A DNA stretch of 35,433 bases from a virus, in IMG/VR virus record IMGVR_UViG_3300021440_000078, positions 1 to 35,433 of that record; one strand, written 5' to 3'. Shown one piece after another: positions 22,162 through 35,141 of the stretch. A program made the translations under genes and the position numbers. Numbering within the stretch: position 1 is the first letter of the stretch; every line of letters begins with the position of its first letter. The notes below the pieces were generated by a model that did no database searches, had not been told where the DNA came from, and saw only the letters and a program-made list of their open reading frames with translations.

Positions 22162-22605
22162 GTGAGCTTGGACGCTCTACTGATTCAGGACCTGCCAGAG
22201 GCCCCAGCCATGCCCCAGTCGGGGCAAGACGGGTTCTTTGCCCGAGCAAGAGTGACTGGGGCATCCTACAATCTGCAGTATTCGGCCCCAGGCGTGAACC
22301 TGCTGGGGCCGAAGCGCGGTGCGGATATCGTTGTAGATGCCAACAAAACTGTGACCATTGCGACCGGTAACAACCTAGCAATCCCTGCCGGGAACGTGCT
22401 AGGTGCGTACGCGCTAACCCTGTCGACTGCTGGGGCAACAACTGGCGAGTTGTTTCAGGTCAGCCGCATCGATGCGTCACCCTATCAGGTTACGGTTAAC
22501 GGGCAGGCTCTAACGGCAGACCGTTCGCAGGTAATCCAATTCAGATTCAACGGCTCATCATGGGTCATTCGCGCGCGATGGAGGGCTGAGGATGTCCGGT
22601 CTTGA
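22162..22605 (+). CDS. Baseplate-associated beta protein, paralogue 1 (147 aa)
   Basis: GTG 22162 directly follows the J gene stop. The protein shares with its downstream neighbour a block at the centre and C-terminus: LTLSTAGATTGELFQVSRIDASPYQVTVNG in this copy versus LTLATTGANTGELIRVSRLDVGAFTFAVVNG in the next, plus a common QDGFFARARVT / QDGFLAVAEVT near the start and FNGSSWVIR / FNGTNWALD at the end. It is predominantly beta-strand. The two likely arose by tandem duplication. A role as paired baseplate peripheral or fibre-attachment proteins is inferred from location. Cys and membrane segments are absent. Confidence 0.75.
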   Translation: MSLDALLIQDLPEAPAMPQSGQDGFFARARVTGASYNLQYSAPGVNLLGPKRGADIVVDANKTVTIATGNNLAIPAGNVLGAYALTLSTAGATTGELFQVSRIDASPYQVTVNGQALTADRSQVIQFRFNGSSWVIRARWRAEDVRS

Positions 22606-23044
22606 TGGGCAAGTAATCGAGCTGTACACGGCGGGAATTAACGCCCCGTCGGATGGGCAAGATGGGTTTTTGGCCGTGGCTGAAGTTACGGCGACTGTTA
22701 AAAACCTGCGGTATATCGACCCTAAGTTGGCCATGTTGGGGCCGCTAGTTGGCCCAGCCTTGACCGATGCGAGCGTCACAATCCAGGTTAGCCAGAGCAA
22801 CGCGCGCGCGTTGCCATCTGCGACACTGACGGCAAACCGAACGCTCACACTCGCAACGACTGGCGCCAACACTGGCGAGCTGATTCGGGTATCGCGCTTA
22901 GACGTTGGGGCCTTTACGTTTGCTGTCGTCAACGGCGGGCCAGGCGGGGGCACACTGTACACATTCCCGGTGTCTATTGCCCGTGAGGCAACCTTCGTTT
23001 TCAACGGCACGAACTGGGCGCTTGATCTGCACTGGGCAATCTAA
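22592..23044 (+). CDS. Baseplate-associated beta protein, paralogue 2 (150 aa)
   Basis: ATG 22592 overlaps the upstream gene by 14 bases after a GAGG ribosome site. It is homologous to the preceding gene over most of its length (blocks SDGQDGFLAVAEVTATVKNLRY, NTGELIRVSRLDVGAF, FVFNGTNWALDLHW). The N-terminal 20 residues and the loop around LYTFPVSIA differ between the two copies. Diverged tandem copies could form a hetero-oligomer around the baseplate. No family name is known to me. Confidence 0.75.
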   Translation: MSGLDGQVIELYTAGINAPSDGQDGFLAVAEVTATVKNLRYIDPKLAMLGPLVGPALTDASVTIQVSQSNARALPSATLTANRTLTLATTGANTGELIRVSRLDVGAFTFAVVNGGPGGGTLYTFPVSIAREATFVFNGTNWALDLHWAI

Positions 23045-27642: not shown

Positions 27643-30600
27643 ATGGCATCAACAATCGACTCAGCCAATCGGGCCACTGGACAGATTGGGGTTAACCTAG
27701 TCGTTGTAATAAGCGCTCAGACGTCCGGGAAGCTTGTTGTAGAGCTCAACTCGGAGAGCACGGCAAACGTCTACACGGCATCGCTACATGGCGTTGCTCT
27801 GCGCCAGTCCGCATATGTGTCCGCAGCCGCGGGCCCGTCGACTACTGCTGTTTTTGAGCTGCTGTCTACCGACCCAATGTGGCCTGGGCCTGGCACGTAT
27901 ACGCTCACCACGACGGCTACGCTCGGAACGCCGGCGGATTCGACGGTTGTCGCGTACCAAATTTACGGCACAGTTCAGACGTACGTCGACTCGACGTCGG
28001 CACATGTCGCGGTATCTGATAATGCCACCGGTCCAGCGATATCGGCAACGATAACGGTTGCAGTCCCTGGGCTTGCGCTCGGAGTCACGCATCATGGGTC
28101 GTCGGTCGCGTCTGACTGGGGAGCTACGCCGGGCAACGGCGGCACAGCAAACGGCACGTTTGCTCGGGCATACGACGCCGATTCGTCGAACACGATCGGT
28201 GTTGCCGCTACCCGTAGCGTTACTACGTCAGGAACGGTAATTCTGACGGAGACTGCGATCGCTACCTACAATCGAGCGACGCAAATTCTAGTGTTTTTCC
28301 CTGATCTGGTTAACACAGGGTCGGCGCCGACACTAACGCAGACAGTCCCGACTGACGGGGCGACGGGCGTTGAATATTACAAGCCGCTTGTGCTGCGCTT
28401 CAACACGTCGGTTCAGGCGCAGAGTTCACCTGGGTACATCACGATCAGGAAGGTTTCGGATAGTTCCGTCGTCTACCGATACGCGGCTAACGCGTCGCAG
28501 GTAAGCTATAGCGGGGCTGTTGTACGCATTGCGCATCCAGGATTGCCAGGATCCACAAGCCTCTACGTCGAGATCGACGCCACGGCTATCGAGGAGGTCG
28601 GCGGCGCGGACTATGCCGGAATTTCCGGGGCAACGACATGGGATTTTGCGACTAGTAGCGCAATCTCCCCGACCGCGATCTATGTAGTTGGGGACGCGTC
28701 GTCGACCGGAAACGGTTGGGTTGACACGAACTATAAGGGCTGGATTCGGCAGTTCACGGACGATATTAACGGCGTGCGACCAGGTAGCGTATGTGATGTA
28801 TTTGGTGGCCCTGGGTATACATATGGAAACCTTGCGCCAGATGGCTACGTGTGGCCCGATGCTGGACGAGCGGCCCTAGCAAATTTCCAGATTGATGGGA
28901 CGCAGAACTCAACAGAAGTTCTCAAACGGAAGCCGGACCTGTTCATTTCCGCGTGCCAGTCGGATGTCGGGGCAGCGGTAAACGCCGCCGGAAGCAACAT
29001 CCTGACGGTAGCAGACGTCCAAGCATTTGTGGACAACGAGGTAATCCCAACTCTACGAGCGATCCGGGCTGAGGTCATCGCATCAGGAGCAGCCTGGTGT
29101 GTAATTACGGACACGCCAAACGACATGGCGGCGAGCCCTACTGCTGCCGAGATTCTGATCGCGGAAGGGAAAAAATACTTCAGCACGCGAATCATTGCGA
29201 CGTTCGCGGCTAACGAGGTGATCGATACGTACGCAGTCCTGACAGATGGCAGCAGCTCGGGCACGCTTGGCTACGGAAAGCTAAGCGCAACGTATGCTAG
29301 CGGAAATGCCTCGCATCCGAACCATGCTGGGCACCAGGCCTTAGCGGACGCAGCTAGGTTAACTCATGTGATACATGCCCGCGTCGGCCCAAAGTTGGCG
29401 CCGTGGACCGGGATGCCACCTACTCTGAAGCGCCTGATGTATTCACCGGTGCTTGGGTACGAGGACAATGGAGCCGGGCTAATCACCGCGCTGTATAACC
29501 ACGGGATTAACGACTACCAGACCGCCGGCGGCGGGCAGGGATACAGGCACGACGCTCGCCCACCTGCCGGCGCCAACAGTCCGCGGCTGACCAAGATCAA
29601 TGGGCGCCCGGCAATGCAGATTGTCGGTACTAACAGCGAAGCGCTGCAATACGCAGACGGAACCGTCGGCAGCACGACACCGGTGACATCTCTCGTGTCG
29701 GACCCGTTGTCGCACACAGAATGGATCGCATACCGGGTGCCAGCAGCCGCCACAGCAAATAACCAGTTGTTATCCTATGGCAACAATGGCTTGGCAGACC
29801 ATTTTGACCTGATCAGAACGAACGGCTCCGGAGGCATCACCAATGCTCGGCGCAATGCCCCGACGGGCTCCGGCGACGTCATAGGCCCTACCGCCTACGT
29901 GTCCGATTCGGTTAACTGGCTCTGGCGAGAGTACAGTGGCGGAACAACCGATGTTGGTTCACTTAAGGGCGACCAGGGAACGCTTGCCACAGGCACGCAG
30001 GATGATCTGCCGGTATTCAACAGATTAACGATCGGCGCAAACGGTAGAACAACCATCACATACAACACGTTGACGCTGGAAGTAGTCGCCGTTGCAATTG
30101 TTGCTGGAACAAGAACCCAAATTGGCAGCAAGGCTGTTGCCAGCATGGATGCGTGGTTCACGTGGCTCACGACGTCCGGGGTCGGCGGCGGGAGCGGGTC
30201 GACTGCCCGTGCCGGAGCAGAGACAATCACACCGCTGGCACTCGCCACAGCAACTCCAACTAGGGCATCTAGCGGCGCGCCCACGGCTGCGCTCGCCCCG
30301 GCTAGCGCCGGCGCAAAAAGCGAGGAGCGAAATGGCCCCCTCACGTTTTTCGTCTCGCCAGTCGGCGCGGGCTCGGGTAGTCGCTCACTGGAGCGCTCAG
30401 GCGCTGCCGCTGGGGGGATTGCTCCCCTACTGCCCGGCAGTCGCTCGCAGGAGCACTCTGGTGCGCTCGCCGTCACTGTGGGGGCATACGCGCCTGGGGT
30501 CGGGGCCGGGAGTCGCTCACTGGAGCGCTCAGGCGCTGTAGCGGCCACTCTCAGTGCAGCTGGGCGAGGCAGCGCGAGCACGTCAGCCGGCGGCGCAATT

Positions 30601-31044
30601 GCTCCTGGCGTCGGGACACAACTAGCGGGATCACAGGCTGACTCCGAGAGCGGGATCGTAGTAATCGTCAAATCAACGACGGTTGGTAACTTGGTTCCTG
30701 TTCGTGGGTATACGATCAAAGCTGGTGAGGAGTTTTGGCTCCAGAGTTTGCCTTCGATCTCGACCCACGGCGAACGACCGTTCTGGACTGATTTCAGCTC
30801 CGGGCTAGCCGCTGCACTGGATGTTTGCTCGACTGTCACAGTCGATGTAGTCGATGAGTTAACAGACACGGTAATCTCTGGAGTAGTAACCCCAAAGGGG
30901 TTTGCGTTTACCCCAGCTGGGGTCGTGACATTCTGGCTCCAAGCCGGTCCAAATCCAGGGCGAGCAATTGTCAGGGTCGGGGTGACCGGCCAAAATACCA
31001 ATTTCGCGGACGACATCCGCTTTGCAGTTTACGTAGACCTGTAA
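27643..31044 (+). CDS. Large multidomain tail adhesin with degenerate SGNH-like domain (1133 aa)
   Basis: Visible domains in order: residues ~1-220, Ala/Thr/Ser-rich beta region; ~230-345, an SbsA Ig-like (Big_5) domain (VPTDGATGVEYYKPLVLRFNTSV, LPGSTSLYVEIDATAIEEVGG); ~346-575, an SGNH hydrolase fold (VVGDASSTGNGW, FISACQSDVG, SHPNHAGHQALAD); ~590-845, a LamG/concanavalin-like module (TEWIAYRVPAAAT, LLSYGNN, VNWLWREYSGG); ~890-985, repeats of GSRSLERSGA type; ~1000-1133, a C-terminal beta domain (YTIKAGEEFWLQSL). The SGNH catalytic positions look changed: Ser to Ala in the GDS block, Asn to Ser in the block III ND, and Asp to Asn in the final DxxH. It may bind rather than cut. It follows the spike gene. 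Confidence 0.72.
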   Translation: MASTIDSANRATGQIGVNLVVVISAQTSGKLVVELNSESTANVYTASLHGVALRQSAYVSAAAGPSTTAVFELLSTDPMWPGPGTYTLTTTATLGTPADSTVVAYQIYGTVQTYVDSTSAHVAVSDNATGPAISATITVAVPGLALGVTHHGSSVASDWGATPGNGGTANGTFARAYDADSSNTIGVAATRSVTTSGTVILTETAIATYNRATQILVFFPDLVNTGSAPTLTQTVPTDGATGVEYYKPLVLRFNTSVQAQSSPGYITIRKVSDSSVVYRYAANASQVSYSGAVVRIAHPGLPGSTSLYVEIDATAIEEVGGADYAGISGATTWDFATSSAISPTAIYVVGDASSTGNGWVDTNYKGWIRQFTDDINGVRPGSVCDVFGGPGYTYGNLAPDGYVWPDAGRAALANFQIDGTQNSTEVLKRKPDLFISACQSDVGAAVNAAGSNILTVADVQAFVDNEVIPTLRAIRAEVIASGAAWCVITDTPNDMAASPTAAEILIAEGKKYFSTRIIATFAANEVIDTYAVLTDGSSSGTLGYGKLSATYASGNASHPNHAGHQALADAARLTHVIHARVGPKLAPWTGMPPTLKRLMYSPVLGYEDNGAGLITALYNHGINDYQTAGGGQGYRHDARPPAGANSPRLTKINGRPAMQIVGTNSEALQYADGTVGSTTPVTSLVSDPLSHTEWIAYRVPAAATANNQLLSYGNNGLADHFDLIRTNGSGGITNARRNAPTGSGDVIGPTAYVSDSVNWLWREYSGGTTDVGSLKGDQGTLATGTQDDLPVFNRLTIGANGRTTITYNTLTLEVVAVAIVAGTRTQIGSKAVASMDAWFTWLTTSGVGGGSGSTARAGAETITPLALATATPTRASSGAPTAALAPASAGAKSEERNGPLTFFVSPVGAGSGSRSLERSGAAAGGIAPLLPGSRSQEHSGALAVTVGAYAPGVGAGSRSLERSGAVAATLSAAGRGSASTSAGGAIAPGVGTQLAGSQADSESGIVVIVKSTTVGNLVPVRGYTIKAGEEFWLQSLPSISTHGERPFWTDFSSGLAAALDVCSTVTVDVVDELTDTVISGVVTPKGFAFTPAGVVTFWLQAGPNPGRAIVRVGVTGQNTNFADDIRFAVYVDL
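30309..30560 (+). repeat. In-gene repeat tract, SRSLERSGA-type units
   Basis: A 28-base segment occurs identically at 30379-30406 and 30511-30538. A diverged copy starts near 30439, and a more diverged one near 30309 (GAKSEERNGP). Unit spacing is ~60-72 bases, and each unit encodes G-S-[RK]-S-x-E-x-[SN]-G followed by a hydrophobic Ala/Pro segment. The tract lies between the LamG-like and C-terminal domains of the large adhesin. It looks like a linker that can expand or contract by recombination. Confidence 0.75.
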
Positions 31045-32042: not shown

Positions 32043-32378
32043 ATGAAACACATCAAGCTACTCATTCCGTTTTTGCTGTCGGTATCGTGCGTGGGCGGCC
32101 CGGTCAAGTTTCCGGAACTGATCGAACACTGCGCTCCTACGCCGGATGACTTGCGCGGTACGGTCAAGGATTTGCTCGGCGGGCGTGACCCTAGCGCGTC
32201 GCTGAAAGAGCTTGGATTATCGACCGGAATCAACACCGTGCTCTGTGCCGTTCGCGATATCCAGCGCCAGCTCACGCGCGTTGGGGCATCCGCCGATGCC
32301 GACTACTCGCCAGCGGTGCTCGGCGCAGCTAACGCGTTTCTGGAGGAGTCCGGGACGCAGTTTGGTGGTGACCAGTGA
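32043..32378 (+). CDS. Small lipoprotein, unknown (111 aa)
   Basis: The N-terminus is basic then hydrophobic (MKHIKLLIPFLLSVSC), with a lipobox-like LSVS|C at Cys16, so a lipoprotein is likely. The mature part is helical (TPDDLRGTVKDLLGG, INTVLCAVRDIQRQLTRVG). It could be a small outer-membrane spanin-like (Rz1) or an immunity/exclusion protein, but neither is confirmed. It precedes the C1 peptidase. An AGGTGA ribosome site supports the start. Confidence 0.65.
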   Translation: MKHIKLLIPFLLSVSCVGGPVKFPELIEHCAPTPDDLRGTVKDLLGGRDPSASLKELGLSTGINTVLCAVRDIQRQLTRVGASADADYSPAVLGAANAFLEESGTQFGGDQ

Positions 32379-32409
32379 GCGACCCGGGCGATAACGATTG
32401 GGACTCAAC

Positions 32410-33234
32410 GTGATCCGAAAACTCGGCTATATCCACCGGGAGCCATCGCTGTTCGTCAAGGCGGGCAGCGCGGTTCGCTCGCGACGGGTACCTGACTCGT
32501 TCGAGCCGACTAGGCACCCTGAGTTTGCCAAGCGCTGGACCTTCCCGCTCGACCAGGGGGAAACCAGCGCTTGCACTGGGTTTTGGGCGGCAAAGGCCTA
32601 CGAGTTAACGATACTCGTGCGACACGGAGTAGAGCTTCAGATTTCTCCGCTTGCTGCGTACTACTGGGGCCGCGCGCGGCTTGCGGAGCGGAACTCCAGT
32701 GGTCAACCAATAGTTGACGACTCAGGCGCGTACACGGGGGATGTGCTTTGGGCCGCCAACTCAATTGGTGTTTGCCCGGAGCGCAGCTGGCCACAGAGGC
32801 GCCACTTTGCGGAGCACGTTAACGACGCACCGGGCCTAGACTGCGTATCCGCTGCGAAGCGCACTAGGCAGCTCTACCCAGCCACTGCACGCCAGATTGT
32901 GGCGTCTGGCGAGAGGCTTGTGCAGCGCGTTTTGCACTCGCTGGACTTGGGGCAATATGTCGGTGTCGCTGTGCCGGTAAGCCATGATTTCATGGATGAC
33001 CAATCGTCTGTTGTGCGTGGCCTGGGTAACGACTACGGGCTGCACCAGGTGGGTGTAATCGACTGGCGCAAAACGGAGGCGGGCGAGTTCGAGCTTCTCG
33101 TCGCTAACTCGTGGGGTGCCGGATGGGGCGGGAAACGCGGCGACGGAGTTGCCCCCCTCGGGTGCCGATGGGCCAGCTCGGCATTTGTAGCTCAGGCCGT
33201 TCACGCGTGCTATTTGGAGGCTCGCAATGCCTGA
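32410..33234 (+). CDS. Papain-like (C1A) cysteine peptidase (274 aa)
   Basis: The GTG at 32410 is preferred over a TTG at 32398; the ribosome site is weak. The sequence has all four papain-family catalytic features: oxyanion Gln49 and nucleophile Cys55 in DQGETSACTGFWAAKAYE, His212 in DYGLHQVGVIDW, and Asn233 in LLVANSWGAGWGGKRG. The last of these is the classic NSWG-xxWG block. Length suits a mature domain with a short N-terminal extension (FEPTRHPEFAKRWTF). No secretion signal is evident. Phages seldom carry C1 peptidases; it could process a virion protein, aid lysis or act on host proteins. The flanking genes encode lipoproteins, which suggests an envelope role, but this is inference. Confidence 0.85.
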   Translation: MIRKLGYIHREPSLFVKAGSAVRSRRVPDSFEPTRHPEFAKRWTFPLDQGETSACTGFWAAKAYELTILVRHGVELQISPLAAYYWGRARLAERNSSGQPIVDDSGAYTGDVLWAANSIGVCPERSWPQRRHFAEHVNDAPGLDCVSAAKRTRQLYPATARQIVASGERLVQRVLHSLDLGQYVGVAVPVSHDFMDDQSSVVRGLGNDYGLHQVGVIDWRKTEAGEFELLVANSWGAGWGGKRGDGVAPLGCRWASSAFVAQAVHACYLEARNA

Positions 33235-33505
33235 CGGGTCATGGATTCTGTGGGCAGCGCTGGCGCTAGGCTGCTCCCCACTCGCCGACATTCCGCCGCT
33301 CGTTGGCAATCCGCCTTCGCGCGCCACGACGCAACTGTGCAGCGCCTACTGCACTCGGTTGACCGAGTGCGCCGCGGATAGCGCTGGACCCACATGCGTG
33401 GCAGACTGCCAGGAAATCCTAGCTAGCCCAGCGCAGCAACGCGCAACTGGGTTTACACGTGACGCCGTTTCGAACTACATGAAGGCACCATGCGACAATC
33501 GATAA
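33227..33505 (+). CDS. Cys-rich lipoprotein (92 aa)
   Basis: ATG 33227 overlaps the peptidase gene by 8 bases. The hydrophobic N-terminus (WILWAALALGC) has a lipobox-like L-A-L-G|C. The mature part holds six further cysteines in CSAYCTRLTECAADSAGPTCVADCQ, spaced C-x3-C-x5-C and so on, a disulfide-style pattern I associate with envelope lipoproteins of Myxococcota. It is the only clue to host. Function is unknown; surface exclusion or a binding domain for the host envelope is possible. Confidence 0.65.
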   Translation: MPDGSWILWAALALGCSPLADIPPLVGNPPSRATTQLCSAYCTRLTECAADSAGPTCVADCQEILASPAQQRATGFTRDAVSNYMKAPCDNR

Positions 33506-34414: not shown

Positions 34415-34584
34415 TTGCGGCGTCACTGCGGGATAGTCTGAGCGCGACGGCTCGGGCTCTCGATGCAACGGCGGCGCGCATGCGATTCGTCTCGGCCCAG
34501 ATGGCTGAGTTAGCGGCTGACCTTCGCGAGCGCCAGGGGCCGCCGTCATCGCGCCGTGACTGCCCGTTGGAGGTACATCCGTGA
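34411..34584 (+). CDS. Small helical protein, unknown (57 aa)
   Basis: GTG 34411 overlaps the upstream TGA (GTGA). The protein is helical and Ala/Met/Arg-rich (SLRDSLSATARALDATAARMRFVSAQMAELAADLRER). It ends with SSRRDCPLEVHP. It may pair with the preceding protein as a coiled coil. The function is unknown. The amidase gene starts with another GTGA overlap. Confidence 0.5.
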   Translation: MIAASLRDSLSATARALDATAARMRFVSAQMAELAADLRERQGPPSSRRDCPLEVHP

Positions 34585-35141
34585 TTGATCCAATGGATCC
34601 AATACCCATGATCCGCGCTGTTAACTACTGGGTGGTAGCACGAACCGATATACGACTCATCGTCATCCACACGATGGAGTCGCCCGAGAAACCAGGGACT
34701 GCTCGCGGAGTCGCGGAGTGGTTTGGTGGATTGCGCGGTAAGGCGCCCGAGGCATCGGCTCACTACTGCGTTGATCAGTCGGAGATAATCCAGTGCGTGC
34801 GCTTAGTTGACGTTGCGTGGCACGCTCCGGGCGCCAACCGAACCGGAATCGGAATCGAGCTTGCGGGGTGTGCGGCGCAATCCGACGCGGAATGGGCGGA
34901 TGAAGCGAGCCTGCGGACTCTAGCGCTCGCCAAAGAGCTTTGCGCCCACCTAGCTGCGGTGTACCAAATTCCCGTGCGTAGGTTAACTCCCGCACAGATT
35001 CGCGCCGGCGAGCGTGGGTTTTGCGGACACGGTGACGTTACCGCGGCTTACCCGGAGCGCGGGCACGGACACACGGACCCGGGCCCGAATTTCCCGTGGG
35101 ACGGCTTCCTCGCCAGCGTTTACCGGAGGGGTCTACAGTGA
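34581..35141 (+). CDS. N-acetylmuramoyl-L-alanine amidase endolysin (Amidase_2, 186 aa)
   Basis: GTG 34581 overlaps the upstream stop. The amidase-2 fold is clear: IRLIVIHTME with zinc ligand H30, a VAEWFGG substrate helix, SAHYCVDQSEIIQCVRLVDVAWHAPGANRTGIGIELAGC, and the C-terminal block GFCGHGDV...HTDPGPNFPW with H150 and D166. It cleaves the amide bond between MurNAc and L-Ala of peptidoglycan to release progeny. No signal peptide is present, so a holin or other export route is needed; none was confidently found nearby. GTTAAC copies lie at 34620 and 34982. Confidence 0.88.
   Translation: MIDPMDPIPMIRAVNYWVVARTDIRLIVIHTMESPEKPGTARGVAEWFGGLRGKAPEASAHYCVDQSEIIQCVRLVDVAWHAPGANRTGIGIELAGCAAQSDAEWADEASLRTLALAKELCAHLAAVYQIPVRRLTPAQIRAGERGFCGHGDVTAAYPERGHGHTDPGPNFPWDGFLASVYRRGLQ

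Follow-up and report, generated by a model that had tools for sequence, protein, structure and literature searches.

What is the function of a papain-family peptidase gene located between two lipoprotein genes of a phage? The window, i.e. the whole stretch of DNA that was analysed, is a 35,433-base virus record with genes for terminase, portal, head protease, tail, fibre and lysis functions. A preliminary description of its peptidase gene offered three guesses: an enzyme used at entry, a lysis helper or an anti-host effector. Of these, the lysis helper fits our results best, and the other two are rated lower. We give about an even chance to the view that the peptidase serves as the soluble enzyme in a module for envelope lysis, acting together with the lipoproteins and the endolysin.

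The peptidase and its neighbours in the window

The peptidase ORF begins with GTG at 32410, or with an alternative TTG at 32398, and ends at 33234. The residues Gln49, Cys55, His212 and Asn233, previously described as an intact C1A catalytic set, were confirmed at these positions, and an NSWGAGWG motif is present. The protein matches the Pfam family PF00112 (Peptidase_C1) above threshold (24.5 bits, gathering score 20.7; E 3.4e-5). Searches with the single sequence revealed no relative in IMG/VR, phages or genomes; a weak match to Lactobacillus phage SAC12B (E 0.6) was dropped, since the C1A motifs are missing from it. In seven divergent relatives, and also in an alignment of 76 sequences, the Q, C, H and N residues and SWG..WG are invariant, and the motif is therefore not a chance one; the disrupted catalytic residues for which the relatives were to be inspected did not occur. 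The AlphaFold2 model (76-sequence alignment; pLDDT 86.7, pTM 0.87) has a papain-like predicted fold, and a PDB search with it gave 303 matches at E <= 0.001, with xylellain first and cathepsins next. Its catalytic set, Pfam match and predicted fold place the protein in the xylellain type of short bacterial C1A peptidases, with no sign of decay and with predicted E-64-sensitive cysteine protease activity. On its own it extends a known family by one new member. Its N-terminus is not hydrophobic, in agreement with the earlier remark that no signal peptide is visible.

Table 1. Peptidase gene of the window and the features flanking it
Feature	Coordinates	Strand	Basis
Lipoprotein 1, signal peptide, lipobox LSVSC	32043..32378	+	ORF; homology to gene upstream of L009/G004 peptidase
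C1A papain-family (xylellain-type) cysteine peptidase, no signal peptide	32410..33234	+	PF00112, catalytic set, AlphaFold2 model
Lipoprotein 2, cysteine-rich	33227..33505	+	Lipobox ALGC; HMM family beside C1A gene
183-aa protein, one N-terminal membrane segment	33490..34041	+	Hydropathy; between lipoprotein 2 and endolysin
Endolysin, N-acetylmuramoyl-L-alanine amidase (Amidase_2)	34581..35141	+	PF01510 E 2.6e-19; PHROG endolysin 4.5e-39

The peptidase gene does lie between two lipoprotein genes (Table 1). Lipoprotein 1 has a slightly off-consensus lipobox, and two further Cys residues (30 and 68) frame a predicted helical stretch; its assignment is backed by homology to a gene on contig G004 that immediately precedes the L009 peptidase gene (40% over 45 aa, E 8e-7). 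In lipoprotein 2 a canonical lipobox is followed by a cysteine-rich domain (C-x3-C ... C-x3-C ... C), for which a fold search against PDB gave no match. The lipoprotein 2 gene overlaps that of the peptidase by 8 bases and has a good ribosome site (ggag). The reported proximity to a lysis gene also holds, as the amidase endolysin is encoded 1.1 kb beyond lipoprotein 2, on the same strand as the peptidase. The intervening single-TM protein has no family match, and no holin was identified in the window.

Several other genes of the window are also worth recording. The protein encoded at 1354-2070 has an N-terminal dATP/dGTP diphosphohydrolase domain (PF18909) and possibly serves modified DNA bases. 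Beside the baseplate and fibre genes there is a tandem gene pair (22162-23044), whose products both resemble that of one gene of the related contig G002 (31% and 59%), which suggests duplication and divergence. A fibre-like protein of 1133 residues (27643-31044), for which no close relative was found in IMG/VR, contains low-complexity GSRSxERSGA-type repeats and a Big_5 domain of the bacterial Ig kind (E 2.6e-8).

Recurrence of the three-gene unit

A two-row profile found the L009 peptidase on a 52-kb contig (G004), between a lipoprotein-1 homologue and a cysteine-rich lipoprotein. The three-gene order of the window is also present in G005 (L110) and G006 (L200/L210). At the protein level, G004 and the window have nothing in common beyond the genes of the unit; nothing detectable is shared with G005, and only a distant terminase and the peptidase are shared with G006.

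An HMM of lipoprotein 2, built from eight loci, was used to search 236 C1A-bearing loci, which together have 17,865 ORFs. There were 16 matches at E <= 2.4e-7, all on the same strand as a C1A gene and no more than 603 bp from it; one additional match (L322, E 0.003) is likewise located beside a C1A gene on the same strand. Eight of the 16 matches were outside the training set. Only 12.3% of ORFs of similar size lie that close, giving a probability of ~5e-8 for eight out of eight if the ORFs are assumed to be independent. When viral and Myxococcota sequences are taken together, all 11 strong matches outside the training set lie beside a C1A gene. The preliminary description had proposed checking whether relatives keep the peptidase near lipoproteins, and they clearly do: about 20 loci have this arrangement, with the cysteine-rich lipoprotein family present in 17 viral contigs (one of them, L322, weak) and three Myxococcota genomes. 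The lipobox Cys and five more Cys positions are retained in most or all of its members. Two-Cys lipoproteins resembling lipoprotein 1 are encoded upstream in G006, L110, L333, L322 and L339. In three loci with sister peptidases (L273, L292 and L337) lipoprotein 2 is placed upstream of the peptidase and its first C-x3-C is without the second Cys. A conserved module composed of a lipoprotein, a C1A peptidase and a cysteine-rich lipoprotein is well supported by these sequence comparisons.

The partnered peptidases are also related to each other. In a FastTree phylogeny of 197 sequences the lipoprotein label requires 2 changes, compared with 15.6 in shuffles, and in an IQ-TREE phylogeny of 63 sequences a single clade with 99/99 support has 18 rows, of which 16 are partnered peptidases and two are others on long branches. 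The IQ-TREE phylogeny was built from the peptidase only and is thus independent of the lipoprotein evidence. The window peptidase is on a long branch within this clade, and its exact place is therefore unsure. A bacterial sequence on a long branch inside the peptidase clade (L235) is likely misplaced, as its chromosomal neighbours are ordinary.

Such tight pairing, the overlap of the genes and the grouping of the partnered peptidases could also reflect an enzyme and its guard, i.e. lipoprotein 2 would act mainly as a periplasmic inhibitor of leaked peptidase until lysis. Bacterial operons of a cysteine protease and its inhibitor are exemplified by staphopain and staphostatin, and the small, predicted disulfide-rich domain of lipoprotein 2, without a known fold match, would suit this role. 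However, this explanation leaves lipoprotein 1 unaccounted for, there is no likeness to known inhibitors, and peptidase and lipoprotein would be in separate compartments before lysis. We regard it as distinctly unlikely.

C1A genes as such had been described as uncommon in phages, which proved incorrect. An IMG/VR motif scan yielded at least 120 stretches with more than 100 C1A genes and, together with loci found before, at least 119 loci with a C1A-type ORF, most with a Cys motif upstream. Moreover, the acquisition of xylellain-type C1A peptidases by tailed phages (myoviruses and siphoviruses) has been published (PMC10380794). It is the setting of the peptidase, in a unit with two lipoproteins, that looks new: a search of the open literature on phage papain-family lysis genes and cysteine-rich phage lipoproteins, with most subscription papers outside its reach, found no description of the pair.

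The bacterial occurrences of the unit bear on the host. Among 284 genomes of Myxococcota (the phylum of a Polyangiaceae genome), the three best lipoprotein 2 matches (4e-15, 5e-9 and 2e-8) each abut a C1A gene and weaker matches do not; a second set, 297 genomes from the phylum to which the Acidobacteriaceae genome SbA5 belongs (treated here as Acidobacteriota), gave one weak match only. L339 has the full unit, including the two-Cys lipoprotein upstream. In L359 (1-3600) the peptidase, cysteine-rich lipoprotein and a glucosaminidase endolysin are followed by chromosome-like genes, and this unit likely sits at a prophage edge; in L360 the gene after the unit encodes a lysozyme-like enzyme with a relative in L009. 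The window terminase has a 46%-identical counterpart in the Polyangiaceae genome mentioned above. In the stretches read of Polyangiaceae prophage-like regions with a related terminase, no C1A NSWG motif was present. The units in Myxococcota genomes and the terminase counterpart make a Myxococcota host likely, though not proved, for the window. Some family members are low in G+C (e.g. L314, 31%) and may have other hosts.

The nearest relative found, judged by structural genes, is the 34-kb IMG/VR contig G002 (L003/L005/L006), which is colinear with the window from the terminase through the baseplate region (TerL 70% identity). A search of the 34-kb contig found no C1A gene; the peptidase therefore belongs to a module that can be exchanged and not to the core genes. 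The corresponding place in G002 is occupied by small proteins with sub-threshold hints of a coiled coil and an Rz1-like LysC, which are no evidence, yet would fit a swap of one lysis solution for another.

Two further explanations can be weighed here. A virion-borne entry enzyme, cutting surface proteins, has in its favour that the peptidase gene follows the tail-fibre genes and that some non-partnered viral C1A genes lie among head, portal and terminase genes. Against this, the conserved partners are lipobox lipoproteins, which are not virion parts, and G002, the closest contig by virion genes, is without the peptidase, making such a role very unlikely in our view. The second explanation, a cytoplasmic anti-host effector or a passenger gene unrelated to its neighbours, does not account for repeated pairing with one lipoprotein family in otherwise dissimilar phages. 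We judge it quite improbable, even though the missing signal peptide, the wide distribution of C1A genes in viral contigs and the absence of the gene from the closest relative, i.e. its not being essential to this phage type, are all in its favour.

Association with lysis genes

In 8 of the 20 loci a peptidoglycan hydrolase gene follows the peptidase-lipoprotein pair. The enzyme is an amidase in the window and L276, a GH25 protein in L261, L263 and L333, a glucosaminidase in L340, and lysozyme-like (weak matches) in L341 and L009. We also counted C1A-endolysin fusions in favour of a lysis role. In Alicyclobacillus phage MMB025 (L214 3920-6181; XXN61434) the C1A domain is fused with Ig-like, Rv2525c-type glycoside hydrolase and PG-binding domains, and in record G039 with an Rv2525c-type glycoside hydrolase. 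A search of viral structure models returned phage C1A proteins, some of whose entries are named peptidoglycan-binding, N-acetylmuramidase or Lysin A (names only).

Other observations were counted against this role, namely the mixed neighbours of viral C1A genes overall (terminase, portal, endolysin), the upstream position of lipoprotein 2 in three loci and the fact that no holin was identified in the window. Just 2 records out of 50 have Amidase_2 within 3 kb of C1A, and a general tie of all phage C1A genes to endolysins was dropped on account of the mixed neighbours. Loci in which no endolysin was seen in the vicinity of the pair are L178, L273, L292, L314, L337 and L322; in L299 and G006 none was identified there.

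Several of the loci just listed lie among tail-fibre-like genes, which the unit adjoins in the window, L009, L110, L178, L273 and L322. This location recalls receptor inactivation (superinfection exclusion), in which the small, exported lipoproteins would mask and the peptidase destroy the surface receptor, so that progeny would not be trapped on debris and rivals would be barred from entry. A precedent is phage T5, whose lipoprotein Llp blocks the receptor and is encoded beside the receptor-binding gene. The likeness, drawn from the general description of Llp, lies in a small phage lipoprotein beside receptor-binding genes; however, Llp works without a protease. Lacking a signal peptide, the peptidase would be unable to get to a receptor in the outer membrane until lysis, and a lysis enzyme is next door in the eight loci listed above. 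We consider receptor inactivation unlikely.

With regard to export and release, the partnered peptidases have no clear signal peptide, with one exception. The G006 peptidase (L210 7020-7895), unlike its relatives, has a twin-arginine-like signal (TRRTLLTGAIAVATTG); in the same contig a ClpP-like gene follows the cysteine-rich lipoprotein. The L009 peptidase has one short hydrophobic stretch, which is internal. TM or holin-like segments are encoded upstream in L009, L263, L322, L333 and G006, none of them with a holin-family match. In four loci (L009 5285-5881, L333 4058-4552, L322 4213-4872 and L263 4066-4860) a single ORF upstream of the C1A gene combines holin-like membrane segments with an internal lipobox and two Cys residues. 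In L333 there is no internal start codon ahead of the lipobox, and this ORF may therefore be a real membrane-lipoprotein fusion.

Proposed mechanism and comparison with known systems

The comparisons show an intact catalytic fold, a conserved three-gene unit, partnered peptidases that group together, and endolysins that are often neighbours of C1A or fused with it; beyond these observations, we infer the following with regard to timing, holin release, outer-membrane location, docking, substrate and proteolysis. During infection the two lipoproteins would be exported and lipidated, and would be located in the outer membrane, on its periplasmic face. Having no export signal, the peptidase would build up in the cytoplasm in folded form, as classical endolysins do. 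At lysis time a holin would open the inner membrane, allowing amidase and peptidase to reach the periplasm, where the amidase would cleave peptidoglycan. The peptidase, docked on the lipoproteins or checked by them, would cleave proteins that bind the outer layers together; candidate substrates are a proteinaceous coat on the surface or proteins that link the outer membrane to the wall. The lipoproteins might thus serve as docking site, guard or spanin-like partner.

A more specific and doubtful version, which we offer only tentatively, is that, in phages that infect Myxococcota and similar hosts, the unit takes the place of spanins and relies on a protease: the holin-released peptidase, held by the cysteine-rich lipoproteins, would cut outer-membrane protein anchors, with no membrane fusion. 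A survey of spanins found 91 of 677 phages to be without spanin genes and asked about another route through the outer membrane (PMC6139136). The conserved unit of protease and lipoproteins, found beside endolysins, offers a specific candidate for such a route, and one that can be tested. It also provides a hypothesis for the function of C1A peptidases in phage contigs, and the gene pair may be used as a marker for phages of the little-studied Myxococcota.

The closest structural counterpart of the window peptidase is xylellain of Xylella fastidiosa (PDB 3OIS; E 6e-13, TM 0.67), which has the catalytic set in common with it but is no more than 18% identical. Xylellain is a bacterial enzyme that stands alone, with no known lipoprotein partners, whereas the window peptidase has two lipoprotein neighbours. 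The MMB025 endolysin holds a phage C1A domain within a lysis protein, as proposed for the window peptidase; however, it is a single polypeptide from a phage of a Gram-positive host, with no lipoproteins seen nearby, while the window has separate genes. The two-component Rz/Rz1 spanins, which act in the last step of Gram-negative lysis, resemble the proposed module in having small outer-membrane lipoprotein(s) beside the endolysin. Neither window lipoprotein is like a known o-spanin (no Pfam match above cut-off, no NCBIfam match), and no coiled-coil inner-membrane spanin was identified between 31 and 35 kb, where hydropathy revealed one ORF with an N-terminal TM segment. In comparison with Rz/Rz1, the window unit adds a protease, and its lipoproteins are cysteine-rich instead of proline-rich.
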